Shown here piece after piece: positions 12,617 to 58,113 of a stretch of DNA of 64,000 bases. The notes beneath the pieces are model-generated. The model was not told the DNA's origin. It did not search any database and saw only the letters and a program-made list of their open reading frames with translations. Origin of the DNA: Collinsella sp. BA40 (lineage in GTDB: Bacteria > Actinomycetota > Coriobacteriia > Coriobacteriales > Coriobacteriaceae); the NCBI RefSeq assembly GCF_008014645.1, contig NZ_VOWY01000001.1, positions 124,001-188,000 on the forward strand. Reading direction: 5' to 3'. The translations under genes were made by a program, and so were the position numbers. Every line of letters begins with the position of its first letter. Positions within the stretch are counted from its first letter, which is position 1.

Positions 12617-13152
12617 GCTTAACAACAACCTTTCCGCTGTGCTTTCGTAAACGGTACGCTGCTTTAACTCTATCACGGTGCATCGCCTATCACCTCAAAT
12701 TAGGGACAGGCACTTTTCCGAGGTTGGGTGCGCTCAATTTAGGGACAGGCACTTTTCCGAGGTTTGAGGGCGCTTCGAATACGTGCTCGTTTCCAGCGCG
12801 GGGTGCCCGGCGCTTCGGCAAGGTGGGTTATTGCTGCTCCAACGGCTCGCATTCCGCGCGTAAAAGCTACTTGGAACGAGGGAGAAAAGGCCTCGTTCCA
12901 AAATGAGCCTCCAAACGGCAAAACGGCGCGCTCGCACGGTCGCGGCGGCCCATGCGCCTCAACGCGATCCCGCCTCAGAAAAGTGCCTGTCCCCTTTCTG
13001 AGGGGTGCGTTTCCGGGCGGCAAAACGGCGCGCTCGCATAAATACGTGCACGGGGAGGGGCGCTGGGCGGTATGATGCACCCGTATGCCGCGCGATTCCG
13101 GTTGGAGCCGCGCCGGCGCTCTCTCATCCATGCGAATCGAAGGCGGCGGAAT
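12617..13152. repeat. gene-free stretch with REP-like hairpins, GGGACAGGCAC family
   Basis: Three copies of the core GGGACAGGCAC lie here: 12703-12713 and 12742-12752 on the plus strand, and 12983-12993 on the minus strand. The last is the loop of a hairpin whose arms are CCTCAGAAA and TTTCTGAGG. The rest of the 536 bases shows no credible coding region, although promoters for the two flanking divergent genes must be here. Confidence 0.7.
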
Positions 13153-14799
13153 ATGGCTTTCCAGGCAGATTATGTGGTGCGTTCGCGCACGGTGTTTACG
13201 TCGGAGCCGGGCGAGGAAAAGCCGCGCGAGCTCGCGTTCGCGGTGGCGGGCGAGCGCATCGTGCAGGTGGGCGCGCCCGACGAGGTGCTCGCCTCCGTGC
13301 CCGCGGACACCCCGGTGCGCGACTTCGGCGATGCCTTCGTCTGCCCGGGCTTCCACGACGCGCACCTGCATTTCTTCCACACCGCGCTCGGCTCCTCGCC
13401 GTTCCTGCTCATGCACATGGGGGACAGCGAGGCGGAGCTGGTGGAGCGCACGAAGGAGTTCGCGGCCGGCCTGCCGAGTCATGCCTGGGTGGTCACCCAG
13501 GGCTGGCGCGATTACCGCTGGGACCCGCCGGTGCCGCCCACCAAGCGCTCCATCGACGAGGCCTTCCCGGACCGTCCCTGCGTCATGTACTCGGGTGACG
13601 GCCACACGCTGTGGCTGAACAGCCGCGCGCTGGAGGAGCTCGGCGTCACCCGCGATTCCGTGCCGCCGCAGGGCGGCAGCTACGATAAGGACGAGGACGG
13701 CGAGCTCACGGGCATCGTTCGCGAGGCGGCCGCGATGGAGCTGCTGCCGCGCTGCTTGGAGTGGCTCACCGAAGAAGACATCGCCCGCGCTTACGCGGAC
13801 CAGATGGGCCGCATGGCCGAGCAGGGCATCACCTCGATCTGCGATATGGCCCTCATGCCGCATCCGGGCTGCGATTTCGTTCGCGACGACGTGTACGAGA
13901 AGCTCTCCCGCGAAGGCGGGCTCACGTTGCGCGTGCATATGTATCCCACGCTGCTCGACGATCAGTCGCGCCTGGAAGACCTGCAGGAGCGCTATGCCGA
14001 TGATGAGTTCCCGCTGCTGCGCGCGCCGGGGTTCAAGCAGTTCTTCGACGGCGTGAGCAGCCAGCACACCGCGTGGCTCACCGACCCGTACACCAACGCG
14101 CGCACGCCCGGCGACTGCGGGCGCCCCACGGTGCCGGCCGACCGCATGCGTGAGCTGGTGCTGGCGGCTGCCGAGCGCGGTCACTCCGTGCGCATCCATG
14201 CGATCGGCGACCGCGCGATCCACGAGGCGCTCGACATCTTCGAGGAGGCGCGCGCCTGGTACGGCGAGCCCCTGCAGGGACGAAACACGCTCGAGCATCT
14301 GGAGAACCTGCTGGAAGGCGACATCGATCGCCTGCGCGAGGTGGGCGTGCTGGCGAGCTCCCAGCCCGGCCATATCACGCTGGATCCCGGTGGCCCCGAG
14401 CGCGACCTGGGGCCCGAGCGCAGCCGCATCATGTGGCCGTTCGCAACCTACGAGGAGCGCGGCGTGGAGCAGGCGTTCGGCACCGACTCGCCCATCACGG
14501 CGGTGACCAGCATGGACGTGCTGTACTGCGCCGTTACGCGCCAAGATCCCTTCACGCATGAGCCCGCGGGCGGCTGGCTGCCGAGCGAGCGCATCTCGGC
14601 CGCCGACGCGCTGCGCATCTACACCGCCGGCAGCGCCGCGGCGGCGGGTCGCGAGGACGAGCTGGGGCAGATCGCGCCCGGCTACCTCGCAGATTTCGTG
14701 GCGCTCGACCGCGACATCACCGCCTGCGCACCCGACGACATCCAGCGCGCGCAGGTGCTCGCCACCTTCGTGGGCGGTCGCCAGGTATACGAGCGGTAG
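13153..14799 (+). CDS. YtcJ-type amidohydrolase (amidohydrolase_3 family)
   Basis: A 548-residue metal-dependent amidohydrolase. The N-terminal small domain leads into VCPGFHDAHLHFF, with the HxH metal ligands. Later come a VMYSGDGHTLWLNSRALEELG block, HSVRIHAIGDRAIHEALD (metal or catalytic histidines), GRNTLEHLENL, FGTDSPI (aspartate ligand) and the C-terminal LADFVALDRD segment that closes the small domain. YtcJ-like enzymes hydrolyse amides or formamides; the substrate is not predictable. The ATG at 13153 is preferred, with a purine-rich GAAGGCGGCGGA upstream. Its last 253 bp recur at 17935-18187, with three residue changes around residues 517-523 (APGYLADF here, ATGMLADF there). Confidence 0.88.
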   Translation: MAFQADYVVRSRTVFTSEPGEEKPRELAFAVAGERIVQVGAPDEVLASVPADTPVRDFGDAFVCPGFHDAHLHFFHTALGSSPFLLMHMGDSEAELVERTKEFAAGLPSHAWVVTQGWRDYRWDPPVPPTKRSIDEAFPDRPCVMYSGDGHTLWLNSRALEELGVTRDSVPPQGGSYDKDEDGELTGIVREAAAMELLPRCLEWLTEEDIARAYADQMGRMAEQGITSICDMALMPHPGCDFVRDDVYEKLSREGGLTLRVHMYPTLLDDQSRLEDLQERYADDEFPLLRAPGFKQFFDGVSSQHTAWLTDPYTNARTPGDCGRPTVPADRMRELVLAAAERGHSVRIHAIGDRAIHEALDIFEEARAWYGEPLQGRNTLEHLENLLEGDIDRLREVGVLASSQPGHITLDPGGPERDLGPERSRIMWPFATYEERGVEQAFGTDSPITAVTSMDVLYCAVTRQDPFTHEPAGGWLPSERISAADALRIYTAGSAAAAGREDELGQIAPGYLADFVALDRDITACAPDDIQRAQVLATFVGGRQVYER

Positions 14800-14929
14800 G
14801 CCCGCCCCCTCAAATTAGCGTTCTTTTGGGACGGGGTTATTTGTCCCACCTTCTCAAATTAGGGACAGGCACCAATCTGAGAGGCGCCCCGCTCTCAGAT
14901 TAGGGACAGGCACCAATCTGAGAGGTGCC
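14547..14929 (+). repeat. 383-bp direct repeat, copy A (3' end of amidohydrolase gene plus downstream hairpins)
   Basis: Matches 17935-18317 at a constant offset of 3388 bases with no gap and about ten scattered substitutions. It covers the amidohydrolase codons from the middle of ARQDPFTHEP to the stop and then about 130 bases of downstream REP-like hairpins. Identity starts at TCCCTTCACGCA and ends at GAGGTGCC. It marks the left edge of a 3.0-kb accessory segment. Confidence 0.93.
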
Positions 14930-15110
14930 CCGCTCTCGTTCTTTTGGGACGGGGTTATTTGTCCCGCCTTCTTATTCGGGAAGGTTAAACCTGCTGCTAT
15001 GCCGACGGAAGGCGGGTGCTCGTTTTGCTTTGCATCGGCATGGTTTGTGATCGGGTGACGGGGTTCGCGTGAAAAGGCGGGACAAATAACCCCGTCCCAA
15101 AATGAGTCCG
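14815..15110. repeat. cluster of REP-like hairpins of both families
   Basis: GGGACGGGGTTATTTGTCCC occurs at 14828-14847 and 14946-14965, and its reverse complement at 15079-15098. GGGACAGGCAC cores occur at 14862-14872 and 14903-14913; the second sits in a hairpin with arms CTCAGATT and AATCTGAG. No gene is supported between 14800 and 15147. Confidence 0.85.
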
Positions 15111-17934: not shown

Positions 17935-18187
17935 TCCCTTCACGCACGAGCCCGCGGGCGGCTGGCTGCCGAGCGAGCGCATCTCGGCCGCCGACGCGCT
18001 GCGCATCTACACCGCCGGCAGCGCCGCGGCGGCGGGTCGCGAGGACGAGCTGGGGCAGATCGCGACCGGCATGCTCGCGGACTTCGTGGCGCTCGATCGC
18101 GACATCACCGCCTGCGCACCCGACGACATCCAGCGCGCGCAGGTGCTCGCCACCTTCGTGGGCGGTCGCCAGGTATACGAGCGGTAG
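17935..18187 (+). pseudogene. 3' fragment of the YtcJ-type amidohydrolase
   Basis: An open frame equal to the last 83 codons and stop of the gene at 13153-14799. It lacks the metal-binding barrel and any ribosome-binding site, so it cannot be functional alone. It reads ATGMLADFVALD where the full gene has APGYLADFVALD; GxLADFVxLD is the more usual family form, which hints that this fragment may be the original gene end and the other the replacement. Confidence 0.85.
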
Positions 18188-18317
18188 GCCCGCCCCCTCA
18201 AATTAGCGTTCTTTTGGGACGGGGTTATTTGTCCCACCTTCTCAAATTAGGGACAGGCACCAATCTGAGAGGCGCCCCGCTCTCAGATTAGGGACAGGCA
18301 CCAATCTGAGAGGTGCC
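17935..18317 (+). repeat. 383-bp direct repeat, copy B
   Basis: Partner of 14547-14929. It includes the gene fragment and REP-like hairpins at 18216-18235, 18250-18260 and 18291-18301, and ends 28 bases before the stop of the helicase gene. Confidence 0.93.
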
Positions 18318-18344
18318 TCCTGTCGGCTATCTTGACCGGATTGC

Positions 18345-24856: not shown

Positions 24857-25739
24857 GGCGCGATCCTTTCCAAATAATGAGCGCGTACTGTAATGACCTT
24901 TATTGTATCGATGGCGCTTTGCGCAGGGGAGGTTTTACGGTGAACGAGCGCAATCGACTTTGAAAGACGGGCGGGCTGCATCGATAGCTGTTTCATAAAG
25001 TATGAGACACGGCGCTCGCGAGAGCCCCATCTGAGTTTCATGCGGCTGCAGCGCCGTTGTCGTCCTAGATGCTCCTCTCTGGTGGCGCTCTGGCAGTAAA
25101 TGCACAAAATGAGTCCGAGGGCGCTCTTGCAGACGGCATGAATATTTTAAAGTTGCCGCGATACTGGATAACTGTTGCGTAATGTGAGCGGTAAGGCGGG
25201 TATTTTCGCTGAAAGCGCTTCCGAAGGCGCTTGGGGCGATTGCTAATGGCCGTTCGAATGCCGCTCTGGCATCCTTTTGGACTCAATTTCTACATTTAGT
25301 GCCATTGGATCACCTCCGCGGTGGCAAATCGCGCGGAATCACGTCTACGCGTATTTTTTCTATGCATTCCGGTTCTGCGTTTATGCATTTGAGGAATGAG
25401 GGCACCGCTTTGCAAGGTCGATGCCGCTTTTGGTGCCTGTCCCCATGTGCGCACGATGGGGTTCGTGCGGAGGGGCCTCGATTCCAAGGCGATTCACCGG
25501 TCGATTGGCGCCAGGTCCAACACTCTCAAATCGACTAGTGGATTGACGTTCTGCGCCGCGTGCGAAGGATCGGTCTGGGTCTCATCGGTCTTCATGGAAG
25601 CGCATCTTGTGTCCTTCTGCGAGGGTCACATCGTGCCTGGCGGACGCACTTATCTGCTTGTGCGGTGCATGAACTTTCAACGACTAATACGGCGCTCAGG
25701 AAATCTAAGTGCCGAGTTATAAGATTTTTTGAAGTCACG
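24857..25739. other. 880-base stretch without a supported gene
   Basis: Several short open frames exist but none has a convincing ribosome site, codon bias or recognisable motif. It holds one GGGACAGGCAC core on the minus strand (25433-25443) and an AAAATGAGTCCGA motif near 25109 that also follows a REP-like hairpin at 15102. No RNA gene was recognised. It may be decayed sequence. Confidence 0.5.
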
Positions 25740-50360: not shown

Positions 50361-51577
50361 GCGGGTTGATGGTTGACGCGGACCGCTGCATCGGGTGCGG
50401 GCGCTGCGTCAAGGCATGCGGCAGCGGCGGCATCGTGGTCGAGGGTCCGCGGGGTGCGCGGCGTGCGCACGCGACCGAGTCGTGCATCGCCTGCGCCGCG
50501 TGCGTGGACGCCTGCCCCGTGGGGGCGCTGGCGTTCGAGCGGCCGTCTGCCGCGGATTCGGCCGGCTGTGCGGATGCCCGCGATTATTGGGTGTTCGTCC
50601 AGATCGATGAGCACGGCAGCCCGCTTGGCGTTTCTTTGGAGCTGATGGGTCGTGCGCGCAGCCTTGCCGACGTGCGCGGCTGCCGTGTGGTCGCGCTGCT
50701 CCCCGAGGGGCTCGCGGGCGATCGGGGCGTGTCCGCGCGCCTCATCGCCGCGGGCGCCGACGAGGTCGTGCGCTGCCGCGACGAGCGCTTCTCCGCATGC
50801 GATGCCGCGGTGCATGCGGAATGGGTCTGCGAGCTGGCGCGTCGGCGCAAACCCGAGGCCATCCTCTACGGCGCCACGGTTTTCGGTCGCGAGCTCGCGC
50901 CCGGGGTTGCCGTGCGCCTGCAGACCGGCTTGACCGCCGACTGCACCTCGCTTGATATCGATCGGAAGACGGGCCTTCTGCTGCAGACCCGTCCGGCGTT
51001 CGGCGGCAACCTCATGGCGACCATCGCGTGCCCGTCGTATCGCCCGCAGATGGCCACGGTTCGCCCCGGGATCTTCCCCATGCCGCGTTATGACGAAGCC
51101 CGCGCGGGCGAGGTGGTAGACGTTCGCCTGGATGCCGCCGTACGGCCCCGGGTCGTGCTGCGCGGCGTCGAGCGCACGCGGGAGGCGGACGCCCTCGTCG
51201 ACGCCGAGGTACTCGTGGTCGCGGGCCGCGGTATCGGATCGAAGAAGAATCTCGCGCTCGCGGGCGAGCTGGCCCGCGCCCTGGGCGGGAAGCTCGGCGG
51301 CACGCGCCCCCTGGTTGAGGCGGGTTGGCTCGAGCCCTGGCAGCAGGTGGGGCAGACGGGCGTAGCCGTGGCGCCCCGCGTCCTGTTGAGCCTGGGGGTG
51401 TCCGGCGCCATCCAGCATGTATCGGGTATATCCGCCGCCCAGTCCATCATCGCGGTGAACGACGATGCGCGCGCACCCATCTTCGATGTGGCGCGCTACC
51501 GCGTGGTGGCCGACTGCGTCGCCTTCGCTTCCGAGCTTCTCGAGCGCCTCGATTCCCAACGCGGGGACAGGGGCTAG
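50357..51577 (+). CDS. etfA: electron transfer flavoprotein alpha subunit with N-terminal ferredoxin domain
   Basis: A 406-residue fusion. Residues 1-62 are a two-cluster ferredoxin: C11, C14, C17, C21 and C43, C46, C49, C53-P54. Then comes EtfA, ending with the FAD-binding region VVAGRGIGSKKNLALAGELARALGGKLGGTRPLVEAGW, VGQTGVAVAPRVLLSLGVSGAIQHVSGI and IIAVNDDARAPIFDVARYRVVADC (read in part). A ferredoxin-bearing EtfA next to a GlcD-like dehydrogenase is the layout of the electron-confurcating lactate dehydrogenase complex. In the first cluster the usual proline after the fourth cysteine is absent (CGSGG). ATG 50357 overlaps the EtfB stop. Confidence 0.92.
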   Translation: MSGLMVDADRCIGCGRCVKACGSGGIVVEGPRGARRAHATESCIACAACVDACPVGALAFERPSAADSAGCADARDYWVFVQIDEHGSPLGVSLELMGRARSLADVRGCRVVALLPEGLAGDRGVSARLIAAGADEVVRCRDERFSACDAAVHAEWVCELARRRKPEAILYGATVFGRELAPGVAVRLQTGLTADCTSLDIDRKTGLLLQTRPAFGGNLMATIACPSYRPQMATVRPGIFPMPRYDEARAGEVVDVRLDAAVRPRVVLRGVERTREADALVDAEVLVVAGRGIGSKKNLALAGELARALGGKLGGTRPLVEAGWLEPWQQVGQTGVAVAPRVLLSLGVSGAIQHVSGISAAQSIIAVNDDARAPIFDVARYRVVADCVAFASELLERLDSQRGDRG

Positions 51578-51707
51578 GTCGAGAGCGCGTTCAGGCTCTC
51601 ATCTGCAGGTGAATGGCTCTGCCGCTTGCATGCTTCGGCCATCTGATCGATCCGGGTCTACAATGGGCATAACGGAGTCATGTCTTATCGACGAGGAGCG
51701 AGGTGCG

Positions 51708-52925
51708 ATGGCGGAAGAGAGGGCGCTGCCGATCAGGCGGCAGAGGCAGGCCGGAACGTTTCTCACCTATGTGCAGTGGCGCATGGATACGTTTGACGAA
51801 CGGCCCCTTTGCGCGGTCGACAGTCTCGTGTTCGCCTGGCTCGCCTACACGCACCTCGACGCCGCGCAAGGCGCTGCGTGCCAGCTCGAGGGCATCGCGC
51901 TGCACGAGCTGCTGCGCGCCGAGTCGTTCGAGAGCATGTTCGGTTCGAGCTGGGATCCCGAGGGAAGCCGCGACCTCCTGTTCTCGGTCTGCGCGAGTCC
52001 GCGCTTCCGCGATGTACGGCTGGCGGCGTTCCGCTTCACCACGAGCCGCGACAGCGAGGAACAGTTCGCAGCCATGACGTTCTACCTGCCCGACGGTTCA
52101 TCGTATATCGCGTTTCGCGGAACCGATTCCACCATCGTGGGGTGGAAGGAAGACTTCAACATGACCTTCCTCAACCCGGTTCCCGCCCAGGAGGAGGCGC
52201 GCGCGTATCTCGATGCGGTGGCGAGCGCCGTGCCCGGCCCGCTGTATGTGGGCGGTCATTCCAAGGGAGGCAACCTGGCGGTCTACGCGGCCGCCATGTG
52301 CGCGCCCGAGCACCACGCCCGCATCGTGCGCGTCTTCTCGCATGACGGTCCCGGATTCCACCGTGAGTTCTGCGCATCGAGCGCGTACCGCCGCGTGTTG
52401 CCCTGCATGGTGAAGACGGTGCCCAAGTCCACGATGATCGGCGCCGTGCTGTCGGAAAGCCCCGACTGCCGCCCGCTCATCGTGGAGAGCGGGGGCTTCT
52501 CGCTCTTCCAGCACAACCCGTTTCTATGGGAGGTCGATGTCGACGCCTGCGCGTTCGTGCAGGCGGACGGCTTCACCGCGTCGTCGCGCTTCTTCAACGC
52601 GACCCTCGATGCCTGGATGGACAAGTACACGCTGGCCGAGCGCGAGCGCTTCGTGGATACGCTGTTCGACGTTATCGGCGTGACTGGCGCTACGCGGTTC
52701 TCGGACATCATGGCCGACCGCAAGCGCACCATTCCGCTCATGCTCGATACGGTCGAGGGGCTCGACCCCGAGCTCCAGCAGTTCGTCAAGGACGTCATCC
52801 GTTCCTTTGCCAAGACGGCGACGGTGGATAAGGCAGCTGGTGCCGCGGGCGATCTGCTCGATACGATCAAGAGCGCGCGGCCATCGATGAAGCTGCCGAC
52901 CCCTCAAATTGGGGACAGGCACTAA
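51708..52925 (+). CDS. DUF2974 (Mbeg1-like) alpha/beta hydrolase
   Basis: A 405-residue protein with the DUF2974 plan: an early TYVQWRMDTFDERPLCAVDSLVFAWLAY, an oxyanion strand SYIAFRGTDSTIVGWKEDFNMTF and the nucleophile elbow GGHSKGGNLAVYAA (serine in GHSKG), then SHDGPGF with the likely acid. It is a predicted cytoplasmic serine hydrolase or lipase-like protein; the substrate is unknown. GAGGAGCGAGGTGCG precedes ATG 51708. The last eight residues (TPQIGDRH) and the stop codon are encoded by a REP-like hairpin, so the natural C-terminus may have been altered by insertion of the repeat. Confidence 0.85.
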   Translation: MAEERALPIRRQRQAGTFLTYVQWRMDTFDERPLCAVDSLVFAWLAYTHLDAAQGAACQLEGIALHELLRAESFESMFGSSWDPEGSRDLLFSVCASPRFRDVRLAAFRFTTSRDSEEQFAAMTFYLPDGSSYIAFRGTDSTIVGWKEDFNMTFLNPVPAQEEARAYLDAVASAVPGPLYVGGHSKGGNLAVYAAAMCAPEHHARIVRVFSHDGPGFHREFCASSAYRRVLPCMVKTVPKSTMIGAVLSESPDCRPLIVESGGFSLFQHNPFLWEVDVDACAFVQADGFTASSRFFNATLDAWMDKYTLAERERFVDTLFDVIGVTGATRFSDIMADRKRTIPLMLDTVEGLDPELQQFVKDVIRSFAKTATVDKAAGAAGDLLDTIKSARPSMKLPTPQIGDRH

Positions 52926-52976
52926 TCTGAGAGGCGGGACTGCTCAGAAAAGGGACAGGCACTAATCTGAGCAAGG
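52902..52976. repeat. two REP-like hairpins, first one overlapping a gene end
   Basis: GGGACAGGCAC cores at 52912-52922 and 52952-52962, each followed by ACTAATCTGAG-type arms. The TAA of the first gives the stop of the DUF2974 gene. A further ATCTGAGCAAGGCG echo follows to about 52995. Confidence 0.85.
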
Positions 52977-53040
52977 CGTAATCTGAGCAAGGCGGGCCTG
53001 GGCTGGCTCTGGCGCCGGGTCCAGGCGCCTTGTCGGTGCA

Positions 53041-53769
53041 TTATTCTGCGATGACGACCTCGCGGTTCTCGGATGTCACGAGCTCCTTGACGGCGATCGT
53101 CGCGCCCAGGTAGCGCTCGACCAGCTCGGCAAGCTCGTCGGTCGCGGCGCGGCAGTCCTCGACGCGCGCGGGGTCGGTGCACTCCACGATGAGGAAGGCG
53201 TTCTCGGTCTCGTCGGTGAGCGCGGTGCGCACGCCGTCGCGCCAGTTCCAGCAGCGGCAGACGGCGCCGGCGTCGTCCAGGTAGGCGAGCTCGCCGGGGA
53301 GCGTCGGGTCGTTCTCGGCGCCCTCGCCCAGCGGCGTGAAGTCGTCGCCGCCCTCGGTGACGCGCAGGACGAGGTCGCCCCGGAAGGCGTCGATGTCCTC
53401 GCCGCCGAGGGGTAACGCGTATTTGAGCGAGATGGCGTTGTAGATATCGACGGACGGCGAGATGCTGCCCACGGGGTTGCCCTTGAGCACGCGCTTGAGC
53501 AGGTTCTCGATGGAGCATCGCGCGCCGCGCTTGGTCTTGAACTGCTGGTAGGCCTGGCGCCATACGCGCACCGGGGCGTTCTCGGAGAGCGTGGGCGACT
53601 CCAGGTGGCGCTCGGCTTGCGCATTGGCACGCGCGAGCAGCTGCTCGATGGCCGCGGCGTCCTCGGGCGCCACGTCCGCCGCGGGCTTCATGCCGCGCGC
53701 GACCACGACGCCGAACGACGCGCCGTCGAAGAGCTCCCAAAACGAGGCGTCGGTGACGAACTTCTTCAT
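53041..53769 (-). CDS. B3/B4 domain protein (phenylalanyl-tRNA synthetase beta-like domain)
   Basis: A 242-residue protein containing the stand-alone B3/B4 tRNA-editing fold: AYQQFKTKRGARCSIENLLKRVLKGN and ISPSVDIYNAISLKYALPLGGEDIDAF, GDLVLRVTEGGDDFTPLGEG and AVCRCWNWRDGVRTALTDETENAFLIVE (spans quoted in part). Such proteins, like the B3/4 domain of PheT, may edit mischarged tRNA or sense D-aminoacyl species, but the function of the free form is not settled. AGGAG seven bases ahead supports ATG 53769. It lies alone between repeat clusters, followed by 114 bases of repeats before the DUF2974 gene. Confidence 0.85.
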   Translation of the reverse strand: MKKFVTDASFWELFDGASFGVVVARGMKPAADVAPEDAAAIEQLLARANAQAERHLESPTLSENAPVRVWRQAYQQFKTKRGARCSIENLLKRVLKGNPVGSISPSVDIYNAISLKYALPLGGEDIDAFRGDLVLRVTEGGDDFTPLGEGAENDPTLPGELAYLDDAGAVCRCWNWRDGVRTALTDETENAFLIVECTDPARVEDCRAATDELAELVERYLGATIAVKELVTSENREVVIAE

Positions 53770-54129
53770 GATGCAACTCCTGTTCTTTTCGGGCGCCTGC
53801 TCCCGTTCCGCCGTTCGGCCTCTCGATGCAGGGGCGGGCGCTGCAATGAGGTGCGTTTGGCGGCGCGGCGCAGGCGCTATGAAAACGAGCGCCCACCCGC
53901 CGGCCACCTTCAACGTCCTACGGTGCCGGCACGTGAGCGCTCGCGCGCTGCCCCCATCCGGAGAAGGAGGCGAATATGTCCCTGTTAGTGTAGCGCCAGG
54001 GGCGTGAAACCTCAAATTGAGGATGGAGACAAAACGAGACGCCGCATGGAAGGCAGCGGCATGCAAACGGGCGTGATGCTCAGGGCGCGGGCCGCTTGTG
54101 TGCCGCGTCTGCTGGAGCGCAGCCTCAGA
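53770..54129. other. 360-base spacer with likely promoter of the B3/4 gene and a REP-like hairpin
   Basis: On the minus strand TACACT near 53986-53991 could be a -10 for a leader running to 53769. CCTCAAATTGAGG at 54002-54014 is a short palindrome. No gene is supported. Confidence 0.4.
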
Positions 54130-54153
54130 TTAGTGCCTGTCCCTTTTCTGAGG
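54123..54153. repeat. REP-like hairpin overlapping the methyltransferase gene end
   Basis: Arms CCTCAGA (54123-54129) and TCTGAGG (54147-54153) enclose GTGCCTGTCCC (54133-54143). Read on the minus strand it encodes the last residues PQKRDRH and the TAA stop of the methyltransferase. Confidence 0.85.
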
Positions 54154-55011
54154 TTTGCGGGCCACGATGGTGAACATGAGGGGCAGCCGCGGAGACCCTT
54201 GGGGCAGGCGCCAGGATTCATCCTCTGCGTGGAACTCGAGCATGGGGAGCGACTGCCATTCGGCCACCTCGTCTTCCGCGAATCCCTCGATCGAGAGGCC
54301 GGCGCCCAGGAGTGCGCTTGCGATCTCTGCGAAGTCGTGCGTCCAGTTATGGTTTCTGGTGTGCGCGAGCCTCCGCGTCGTCTCGTTGCCGGGATCGGTG
54401 GTGTAGGTGACATCCATGTCGTAGGAGCTTTGCGAGCCCGATACGTAGTCGCAGCATGCCTCGAGCCCCGAGAAGCCGAGGGCGGCGAGCAGCGGGTGAT
54501 CGTCGCGGATCATGAAGGCGCCGCCGGGCGCGAGGAGCCGCTCGATGGAACGCGCCCAGTCGGCGAGGTCGGGCAGCCAGGTGATCGTGCCGGCGCTGGT
54601 CACGATGGCATCGAAGGTGCCGATGTGATCTTGGAGCGCGTCGGCCGCGAACCGCGCATCGCCCTCTGCGTAGCGCACCTCGACGCCCGCCTGGCGCGCG
54701 AGCTCGCGTGCATGGGCGAGGGCGGCAGGTGAGAAATCCAGCCCCCAGGTTTCGGCCGCGCCTAGACGCGGCCAGCAGAGGGTGTCGGTGCCGATATGGC
54801 ATTGCAGGTGCAGCAGCTTGAGGCCCTCGACCGTGTTGTTCGGTAGATGCGGCCGCAGCGCCTCGTAGTCCCTGCGAGCGACGCCTGTGATGGCGCGCGG
54901 GTCGCCCGTGAGGGCGGAGAGGTCGCCGTACCCGCCGTGTGCATGGACCTCGGCGCGGTCGTCCCAGCTGGCGCGGTTCACGTCGATGAGGGGCGCATCG
55001 TCGTTTGCCAT
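54130..55011 (-). CDS. class I SAM-dependent methyltransferase
   Basis: A 293-residue enzyme. After an N-terminal WDDRAEVHA segment, the SAM-binding core reads LKLLHLQCHIGTDTLCW, then TWGLDFSPAALAHARELARQAG with acidic loop, VRYAEGDARFAADAL and FDAIVTSAGTITWLPDLADW. The first motif reads LQCHIGTDTL, as in a subset of small-molecule methyltransferases. The substrate is unknown. AAAGGA five bases upstream supports ATG 55011. Its last seven residues (PQKRDRH) come from a REP-like hairpin, the same ending pattern as in the DUF2974 gene. It is divergent from the TetR gene. Confidence 0.83.
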   Translation of the reverse strand: MANDDAPLIDVNRASWDDRAEVHAHGGYGDLSALTGDPRAITGVARRDYEALRPHLPNNTVEGLKLLHLQCHIGTDTLCWPRLGAAETWGLDFSPAALAHARELARQAGVEVRYAEGDARFAADALQDHIGTFDAIVTSAGTITWLPDLADWARSIERLLAPGGAFMIRDDHPLLAALGFSGLEACCDYVSGSQSSYDMDVTYTTDPGNETTRRLAHTRNHNWTHDFAEIASALLGAGLSIEGFAEDEVAEWQSLPMLEFHAEDESWRLPQGSPRLPLMFTIVARKPQKRDRH

Positions 55012-55045
55012 GGTATTCCTTTCATATTTCCGCTTTGGTGTCACC

Positions 55046-55093
55046 TTGCTTCGTCGTTATCGCAAGACTACTATACATACCAACAGTATGTAT
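55046..55093 (+). promoter_or_regulatory. TetR gene promoter with palindromic operator
   Basis: TTGCTT (55046-55051), 17-base spacer, TACTAT (55069-55074). ATACATAC-CAACA-GTATGTAT (55073-55093) is a perfect 8+8 palindrome over the start region. A matching site precedes the MFS gene at 55854-55870, pointing to one regulator. Confidence 0.75.
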
Positions 55094-55109
55094 GAGGAGG
55101 CGGTCGTGC

Positions 55110-55796
55110 ATGGCGAGAAACAAGCATCCCGAGGAGACGGTCGCGAGGATCCTCGACGTCGCGATGCGCCTGTTCGTCGAGCGCGGCTACGAGCAGACGA
55201 GCATGCAAAACATCATCGACGAGCTGGGCGGCCTTACCAAGGGTGCGGTCTACCATCATTTTTCGAGCAAGGATGATATCTTTCTCGCCGCCATGGACCG
55301 CGTGATGGCGCCCGGCGTGGAGCGGTTGCGTAGGATTCGCGATGCCGAGGGCATGACCGGTCGCGAGAAAATCCAGGCGATGTTCGATAGCGGTGCACGC
55401 GGGATGGACTCGGCCTTCTTCTCCCAAGCCGATCCCGAGCTCGATCCCATGAGGAACCCGCGGATGCTCGCCACCGAGTATCGCGATTTGTTCGCCGTGA
55501 GCGCCCATGAGCTCATGATGCCCGTGATCGAGCAGGGCGTGGAGGACGGGACCATCCAGACCGAGTATCCGCGCGAGCTCGCCGAGGCGATCGCCCTACT
55601 CAACAACTTGTGGTGCGTCCCGGCGTTCTTCCCTGCACGCGATGAGGGGGAGCAGGCGCGGCGCGTGGCGTTCATGAATGCCTTTATGAAGGGCATGGGG
55701 TTGGATATCGTGCTGGATCCGCAGGTGAGTTTGGAAACCTGGCGGCGCCGCTGTGGAGGTCGGCCCGCAGATGAAGGCGCGCAGCCCCTTGGATAG
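55110..55796 (+). CDS. TetR/AcrR family regulator
   Basis: A 228-residue regulator. The N-terminal helix-turn-helix is typical: EETVARILDVAMRLFVERGYEQTSMQNIIDELGGLTKGAVYHHFSSKDDIF (residues about 7-57, read in part). The C-terminal ligand domain is not identifiable. GGAGG nine bases upstream supports ATG 55110. It is encoded just before an MFS exporter, and both promoters carry the same CATACCAACAGTATG site, so this protein probably represses itself and the exporter until an inducer binds. A terminator separates the two genes. Confidence 0.9.
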   Translation: MARNKHPEETVARILDVAMRLFVERGYEQTSMQNIIDELGGLTKGAVYHHFSSKDDIFLAAMDRVMAPGVERLRRIRDAEGMTGREKIQAMFDSGARGMDSAFFSQADPELDPMRNPRMLATEYRDLFAVSAHELMMPVIEQGVEDGTIQTEYPRELAEAIALLNNLWCVPAFFPARDEGEQARRVAFMNAFMKGMGLDIVLDPQVSLETWRRRCGGRPADEGAQPLG

Positions 55797-57940: not shown

Positions 57941-58043
57941 GGTGGGTCCTTTCATGGGGGCGGTTCTTTAGCTGGTTTCAGGTTGGCGTTTCACTTCGGC
58001 ACCCGTCCCCAATGCGAGGCTGCGTTTTCGTCCACGGCCCGCG

Positions 58044-58113
58044 GTCTCAGAAAAGCGCGTCTCAGAAAAGGGTCTCAGAAAAGGGTCTCAGAAAAGTGCC
58101 TGTCCCTTTTTCG
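58044..58113. repeat. short tandem repeats of a REP-like arm, ending in a full REP-like hairpin
   Basis: GTCTCAGAAAAG occurs at 58044, 58059, 58072 and 58085, the last two steps with a period of 13 bases. The last copy continues into GTGCCTGTCCC at 58096-58106. Half-arms have thus been multiplied next to one complete unit. Confidence 0.8.

Follow-up and report, generated by a model that had tools for sequence, protein, structure and literature searches.

The present analysis concerns a short hairpin repeat of the gut bacterium Collinsella sp. BA40 (assembly GCF_008014645.1) and two genes that end inside it, both located in the window, by which we mean the whole 64,000-nt stretch of DNA that was analyzed (contig NZ_VOWY01000001.1, positions 124,001 to 188,000). 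A DUF2974/Mbeg1-like gene on the plus strand and an S-adenosylmethionine (SAM) methyltransferase gene on the minus strand lie on either side of a B3/4-domain gene, and the ends of both sit within copies of a hairpin that has the constant loop GGGACAGGCAC.

Two gene ends inside hairpins

The features of the locus are as follows, in window coordinates.

51465..52925, plus strand: DUF2974/Mbeg1-like gene (PF11187); final seven codons plus TAA within hairpin 1; start uncertain (gene caller: 51828)
52902..52931, plus strand: hairpin 1, CCTCAAATT-GGGGACAGGCAC-TAATCTGAG; gives PQIGDRH-stop, TAA at 52923-52925
52943..52971, plus strand: hairpin 2, 3' of the DUF2974 gene; direct repeat of hairpin 1 at a spacing of 40 nt
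52963..52994, plus strand: two tandem TAATCTGAGCAAGGCG copies, the duplicated right arm of hairpin 2
53041..53769, minus strand: B3/4-domain gene (PF03483), between inverted hairpins; an old neighbor, not a passenger
54124..54153, minus strand: hairpin 3, CCTCAGAAAA-GGGACAGGCAC-TAATCTGAG; gives PQKRDRH-stop, TAA at 54132-54130
54130..55044, minus strand: SAM methyltransferase gene; final seven codons plus TAA within hairpin 3; start uncertain (55044 or 55011)

The 3' end of the DUF2974 gene (52902-52925, plus strand) reads CCT CAA ATT GGG GAC AGG CAC TAA, or PQIGDRH-stop, and that of the methyltransferase gene (54153-54130, minus strand) reads CCT CAG AAA AGG GAC AGG CAC TAA, or PQKRDRH-stop, so that the codon register bears out the original prediction, made from the letters of the window, that both DRH-stop tails are translated from the hairpin. 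The repeat-derived tail comprises seven codons and the stop in both genes. The prediction had placed the source of these tails in the hairpin core, which needs correction for the residues PQ, as these come from the left foot of the hairpin; the remaining residues are encoded by the arm and loop, and the right arm begins with the TAA.

Matches to a 14-base core with up to two mismatches number 13 in the window versus 0.20 expected, a count reached by none of 100 shuffles. When folded as RNA, hairpin 1 is weak (− 9.6 kcal/mol, z − 1.0, 35 of 200 shuffles equally good), and hairpins 2 and 3 are clear (z − 3.7 with 0 of 200 shuffles as good, and z − 2.8 with 2 of 200, respectively). A terminator scan of 52700-54400 returned two matches, neither of them on a hairpin, against a shuffle mean of 1.0, and an Rfam search of 52500-55200 returned no match. 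The sequence GGGACAGGCACTAA occurs 10 times in the genome and, by our own gene calls, provides an in-frame gene stop in two of these, which are the two reported genes.

Relatives with and without the repeat

The original prediction was open to refutation by distant species with these tails but no repeat, and none was found among the relatives compared. Among 80 methyltransferase relatives from named genomes, one ends DRH-stop, that of Collinsella phocaeensis (83% identical), and it has the same hairpin with the core at most 60 nt from the stop; the tail is absent from all 16 DUF2974 relatives read. Most of the other methyltransferases end VARKP or VARRP followed by 0 to 11 residues (42 of the 80 tails inspected), and a congener at 60% identity (genome G027) ends RKPKA-stop without the repeat. 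The DUF2974 relative of G015 has an inverted core pair 55 nt behind its own stop, and that of G026 has none there.

The same comparison was made at three further genes, for which 22 of 30 fetched loci (HD-domain gene), 12 of 17 fetched loci (YbjQ-like gene), and 30 loci (HolA) were read. The HD-domain gene (PF01966) of this genome ends DTFPSN-stop on the hairpin, from CCCTCGAATTAG; 14 of the 22 loci lack a repeat within 75 nt and have different ends (five QAE, two GKE, and seven others), and in C. phocaeensis and five other genomes the core lies behind an intact stop. The YbjQ-like gene (PF01906) ends RTSD-stop in this genome, one residue longer on the hairpin, versus for example RTS-stop or RKA-stop in relatives (10 of the 12 loci readable). 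HolA, the DNA polymerase III delta subunit, ends CTGK-stop on the hairpin in G029, and the other 29 of the 30 genomes are without a core at that stop; HolA of G020 and G039 stops at the same codon as in G029, with CTRG-stop, and that of G014 runs on for six more residues. At these genes, the repeat takes the place of the final codons, with a change in length of about − 6 to + 6 residues, and its copies differ among near relatives at the same gene.

Two side observations were made at the HD-domain gene. In G037 (L346), it ends DTFTSN-stop on a variant hairpin in which GGGACTGTCCC replaces the loop, at the same place as the PSN-stop of this genome, and the two represent either a shared or a repeated insertion. 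In three other genomes (G010, G019, and G012; L361, L362, and L363), the loop behind the gene lies in a long perfect hairpin followed by a T-run, which resembles an intrinsic terminator.

The repeat family, its positions, and the flanked transposase gene

The 1.93-Mb genome holds 65 exact copies of the loop (34 forward and 31 reverse; reversed-pattern control, 0 and 1), almost all of which have CTC nine to seven bases 5' of the loop and GAG in the mirrored position, with pairing at these three positions in 63 or 64 of the 65. The loop was found in 39 of 43 Collinsella genomes, in which the stem varies (TGGGAAAA in G029, CCACCACAAAG behind the HD-domain gene of several genomes, and TCAATT in G015). 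Copy numbers are 65 in this genome (G000), 109 in C. phocaeensis (G016), 120 in G029, and 39 in G036, which rank 3, 2, 1, and 5 of the 43. Inspection by eye of 25-nt flanks found no GTAG or GTRG head beside the palindrome in any of the 65 copies; the repeat is therefore not a repetitive extragenic palindrome (REP) of the GTAG kind. The core starts with GGGGACAG, which fits GGGGWSAS, in part of the copies and with AGGGACAG in others. No description of repeats of this kind in Collinsella was found in the open-licence literature, supplements aside, and the available part of PMC8040213 deals with Collinsella and palindromic RNAs in general terms and not with this repeat.

To place the repeat relative to genes, 65 of 65, 92 of 109, and 80 of 120 loop copies were examined in G000, G016, and G029, respectively, the order in which triplets of values are given hereafter. 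Across the resulting 147 clusters, 69 gene 3' ends (19, 18, and 32) and a single gene 5' end (0, 0, and 1) lie within 15 nt of the repeat. Random placement of the repeats within their own gaps gave mean numbers of 3' ends of 8.9, 8.8, and 12.3, and the observed number was reached in 0 of 5000 runs in each genome, which confirms in three genomes the preference for gene ends that had been proposed from two genes. Clusters located inside a called gene number 0 of 39, 2 of 55, and 1 of 53, the two in G016 being loop matches without a stem, and 5' ends within 30 nt number 3, 3, and 3 versus means of 4.5, 6.0, and 9.0, clearly low in G029 only. The repeat lies on the strand of the gene in 17 of 19, 17 of 18, and 21 of 32 cases (p = 0.0007, 0.0001, and 0.11). 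Clusters of a single orientation were counted separately because plus-minus pairs yield a strand bias by construction; within 30 nt, these have the repeat on the gene's strand in 10 of 11, 12 of 13, and 12 of 19 cases (p = 0.012, 0.003, and 0.36).

The stop codon itself lies inside the hairpin in 16 genes (5, 2, and 9), which may be an undercount, as the transposase gene of G029, which ends on a hairpin, is absent from this set. Of the five genes of this genome, only the two reported ones use the TAA behind the loop; the other three end on the TAG of the left arm instead. One of the two genes of G016 is the methyltransferase gene, and the other reads through the hairpin to a TGA (TSERGQALF-stop). 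The nine genes of G029, which are unrelated to one another and include that of DNA polymerase III delta, end GK-stop in eight cases and GI-stop in one, with the core on the gene's strand in six and on the opposite strand in three. The DRH frame is only one outcome of a repeat at a gene end.

A single match to PF01797 (IS200-like Y1), above the cut-off, was found in this genome (C28:109249-109584), and two loop copies lie on either side of it, pointing inward in inverted orientation. The translation contains the HUH motif, in the form HIH, and YVHDNP; a PDB sequence search with it gave no match at E 0.01. A C-terminal match to the helix-turn-helix (HTH) family HTH_23 was seen in the transposase of G036 (E = 1.4e-4, 22.0 bits versus a cut-off of 24.6), with weaker matches in G029 and G016 and none listed for G000, and the transposases of G000 and G029 align along their C-terminal part at 38% identity.

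A survey of 30 Y1 loci of the genus, drawn from a larger number of matches, comprised eight loci with more than 130 bits, none of which has an adjoining core, and 22 RAYT-like loci with less than 60 bits, four of which have inverted cores. These four belong to G000, G016, G029, and G036; all four copies at the locus of G000 carry AGGGACAG, and GGGGACAG is present at the loci of G029 and G016. Another locus (L138 of G026) has inverted GGGGACAS without the core. The four genomes with a flanked gene hold 65, 109, 120, and 39 copies of the loop versus 0 to 50 in the other 18 (p = 0.0016), a link that supports mobilization of the repeat by the flanked transposase, short of proof. The transposase genes of G029 and G036 take their stop from the TAG of the hairpin that flanks them and end AGK-stop. 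The iron-hydrogenase gene on the far side of these loci likewise terminates on a hairpin, with MGK-stop, and in G029 this hairpin has the variant loop GGGACAGTCCC. The repeat may carry a ready-made stop because the transposase gene can end inside it, in which case its copies would spread this stop, insertions across gene ends would be self-terminating, and nine unrelated genes of G029 would in this way have come to share a final GK or GI. We hold this idea tentatively and think it somewhat unlikely. The transposase genes of G000 and G016 stop a few bases before the hairpin, and the idea consequently fits one branch only.

Further copies and duplications were observed elsewhere in the window. 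At 58043-58104, tandem right-arm units GTCTCAGAAAAGG in steps of 13 to 15 nt continue from a hairpin at 58093, the same kind of arm duplication as at 52963-52994, and at 25430-25443 there is a single minus-strand copy of the loop without the usual CTC/GAG stem, which is either a remnant or matches by chance. Between the B3/4 and methyltransferase genes (54010-54045), a palindrome CCTCAAATTGAGG is followed by GGAGACAAAACGAGA, and C. phocaeensis has a similar sequence in the corresponding position; this may be a repeat of another type that has decayed. An amidohydrolase gene (13072-14799, PF07969) has its 3' end, along with the repeat pair behind it, present in two copies 3388 nt apart (14547-14937 and 17935-18325; 300 nt, 97% identity). 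The stretch between the two copies contains a DUF4417 gene and genes without a Pfam match, and looks like an island, with a second copy of the gene end, that was inserted at that end.

Origin of the gene ends and comparison with known systems

Given the tails, their absence from repeat-free relatives, the gene-end and orientation biases, and the flanked transposase gene, all of which were observed, we consider it very probable that the hairpins are a REP-like, non-autonomous mobile repeat located at gene ends, that they are multiplied by the flanked IS200-type transposase, and that they supply genes with tails and stops. A Y1, HUH transposase of the IS200 type, the gene for which is flanked by inverted hairpins, would multiply the repeats. 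The copies lie mainly directly behind or across gene 3' ends, in two of the three genomes mostly with the GGGACAGGCAC strand along the direction of the gene. A gene with a copy across its last codons no longer has its old stop and uses a hairpin-borne one, be it a TAA that follows the loop (giving DRH-stop), a left-arm TAG (giving SD-, SN-, or GK-stop), or a right-arm TGA. Selection, probably the main cause of the gene-end bias, would eliminate copies inside or in front of genes, and copies that provide an early in-frame stop would be tolerated. Such tolerance is the best-supported reading, to which a functional role or a target preference could add. The proposal that repeat insertion rewrote two unrelated C-termini, perhaps through a preference for gene ends, is upheld in outline, as to both the rewriting and the preference, the latter of which may stem from insertion or from selection.

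Several observations weigh against this account. Tolerance alone does not explain the strand bias in G000 and G016, and the bias is weak in G029 and created by construction where plus-minus pairs occur. The gene ends derive from our own codon-usage gene caller, in which wrong calls are possible. No clean pair of filled and empty sites that shows an exact junction was found, no insertion was observed happening, and no remnant of the old stop was recognized behind the repeats of the HD-domain gene. Of the 22 RAYT-like loci, 18 have no adjoining core, including that of G040, which has 50 copies. The match of the transposase to the NCBIfam model REP_Tyr_transpos (NF047646; E = 2.6e-19) scores 69.6 bits, below the cut-off of 80, for which reason we describe the enzyme as working like a RAYT without assigning it to the NCBIfam family. 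Within a genome, the bases of the inner stem pair about as often as expected of independent columns (e.g., 42 of 65 paired versus 42.5 expected for the innermost pair of G000), and the case for structure is accordingly made by the outer stem, which is nearly constant, and by the differing, complementary stems across species. The clearest excess of pairing, at positions − 11/+ 11, lies outside the core stem (35 versus 23.0 expected in G000 and 48 versus 35.4 in G016).

A functional role is the likeliest of the alternatives, although we judge it to have a rather low probability: the repeats may be kept at gene ends as terminators, mRNA-protecting elements, or elements acting at the end of translation, with the shared tails as a by-product. 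Their position at 3' ends and strand bias would fit such a role, as would the CCACCACAAAG-loop-CTTTGTGGTGG hairpin and T-run that follow the HD-domain gene in several genomes and form a terminator-like fold (− 25.3 kcal/mol, z − 5.3), and the available part of PMC12306157 cites E. coli REPs within 15 nt of the stop as stalling ribosomes. The hairpins of the window, however, have no T-run and were passed over by the terminator scan, a separate terminator-looking inverted repeat, read by eye, follows the repeats behind the HD-domain gene of G000, and copies vary between near relatives at the same gene. Somewhat less likely still is that gene ends are hot spots by mechanism, the transposase targeting a site near stop codons. 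The sharp pile-up at 0 to 15 nt, the five repeats of G029 that abut gene ends exactly, and the HolA stop of G020 and G039 (ATAG GGGAG), which coincides in codon position with the TAG that the hairpin provides in G029, all point in this direction. Against it, gaps between repeat and gene end range from 0 to beyond 50 nt, all three stop codons occur in front of repeats, and TAG shows no clear excess (14 of 20, 19 of 28, and 12 of 22 near sense repeats versus 52 of 86, 38 of 73, and 46 of 82 elsewhere).

The remaining two alternatives concern the window itself. The B3/4 gene is enclosed by hairpins 2 and 3, which form perfect 29-nt inverted repeats at a distance of 1152 nt. This layout resembles that of the transposase gene, and the two hairpins could be taken for the ends of a composite element carrying the B3/4 gene. 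Synteny rules this out for practical purposes, leaving it highly improbable: the B3/4 gene is an old neighbor, which in C. phocaeensis (L113) follows the methyltransferase gene with a loop between the two and none behind B3/4 in the 11 kb fetched, and which in G038 (L106) is close to the DUF2974 relative, the 12 kb fetched there containing no loop. That DRH-stop is common to two unrelated proteins might also suggest a conserved functional C-terminal motif, the likeness to a repeat being secondary, an idea to which we give next to no credence; it is ruled out for the relatives examined, which lack the tail where they lack the repeat, and further genes acquire different tails by reading the same repeat in different frames.

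As orthologue comparison shows, a small, probably mobile repeat has reset the C-termini of many genes, including that of a DNA polymerase III delta gene. In annotation, DRH, SD, SN, or GK before the stop in Collinsella may be repeat-derived and not necessarily a functional motif. Repeat-supplied stops are already known from related repeats, of which Collinsella is a well-supported new example; the present analysis adds the repeat family and its transposase, counts from three genomes, the repeated occurrence at genes that are unrelated, and the finding that in two genomes the transposase gene itself uses the hairpin stop.

By analogy, the Collinsella repeat and transposase appear to work like a REP/RAYT (TIRYT) system; the comparisons that follow draw on the available portions of the cited papers. 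As with GTAG REPs and their RAYTs (Di Nocera et al. 2013, PMC3733652; Nunvar et al. 2010, PMC2817692), there are many short palindromes, as singles and inverted pairs and mostly behind genes, inverted copies flank a Y1 transposase gene, and the repeat supplies the stop of flanking genes. GTAG REPs often provide the TAG stop of flanking open reading frames and lie mainly behind genes, often less than 20 bp from the 3' end (PMC3733652). Unlike them, the Collinsella repeat has no GTAG head, its constant part is the loop GGGACAGGCAC, and its stem differs by species. Inverted repeats, some of them containing GGGGWSAS, flank TIRYT transposases (PMC3733652). Most of these enzymes belong to subclass 2.1, in which a C-terminal HTH is present and REP-like sequences were not found beside the genes (Quentin et al. 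2018, PMC6006769). The fit to GGGGWSAS of those copies that have GGGGACAG, the IS200-like transposase, and the weak C-terminal HTH match in G036 recall these TIRtrons/TIRYTs, whereas the Collinsella repeats are hairpins that number 39 to 120 per genome where the transposase gene is flanked, in four genomes, which suggests that GGGGWSAS-type inverted repeats can turn into REP-like hairpins at high copy. E. coli REPs (cited in PMC12306157) are likewise hairpins directly behind stop codons, for which a control of translation has been proposed, but the Collinsella sequence is different and 16 stops lie inside its hairpin. The enterobacterial RU-1 is also a mobile repeat that replaced a normal stop and gave a new C-terminus, that of the amidase ECA3499 (PMC2759123); it differs from the Collinsella repeat in being a 127-bp element described from individual cases rather than from a genome-wide bias toward gene ends.

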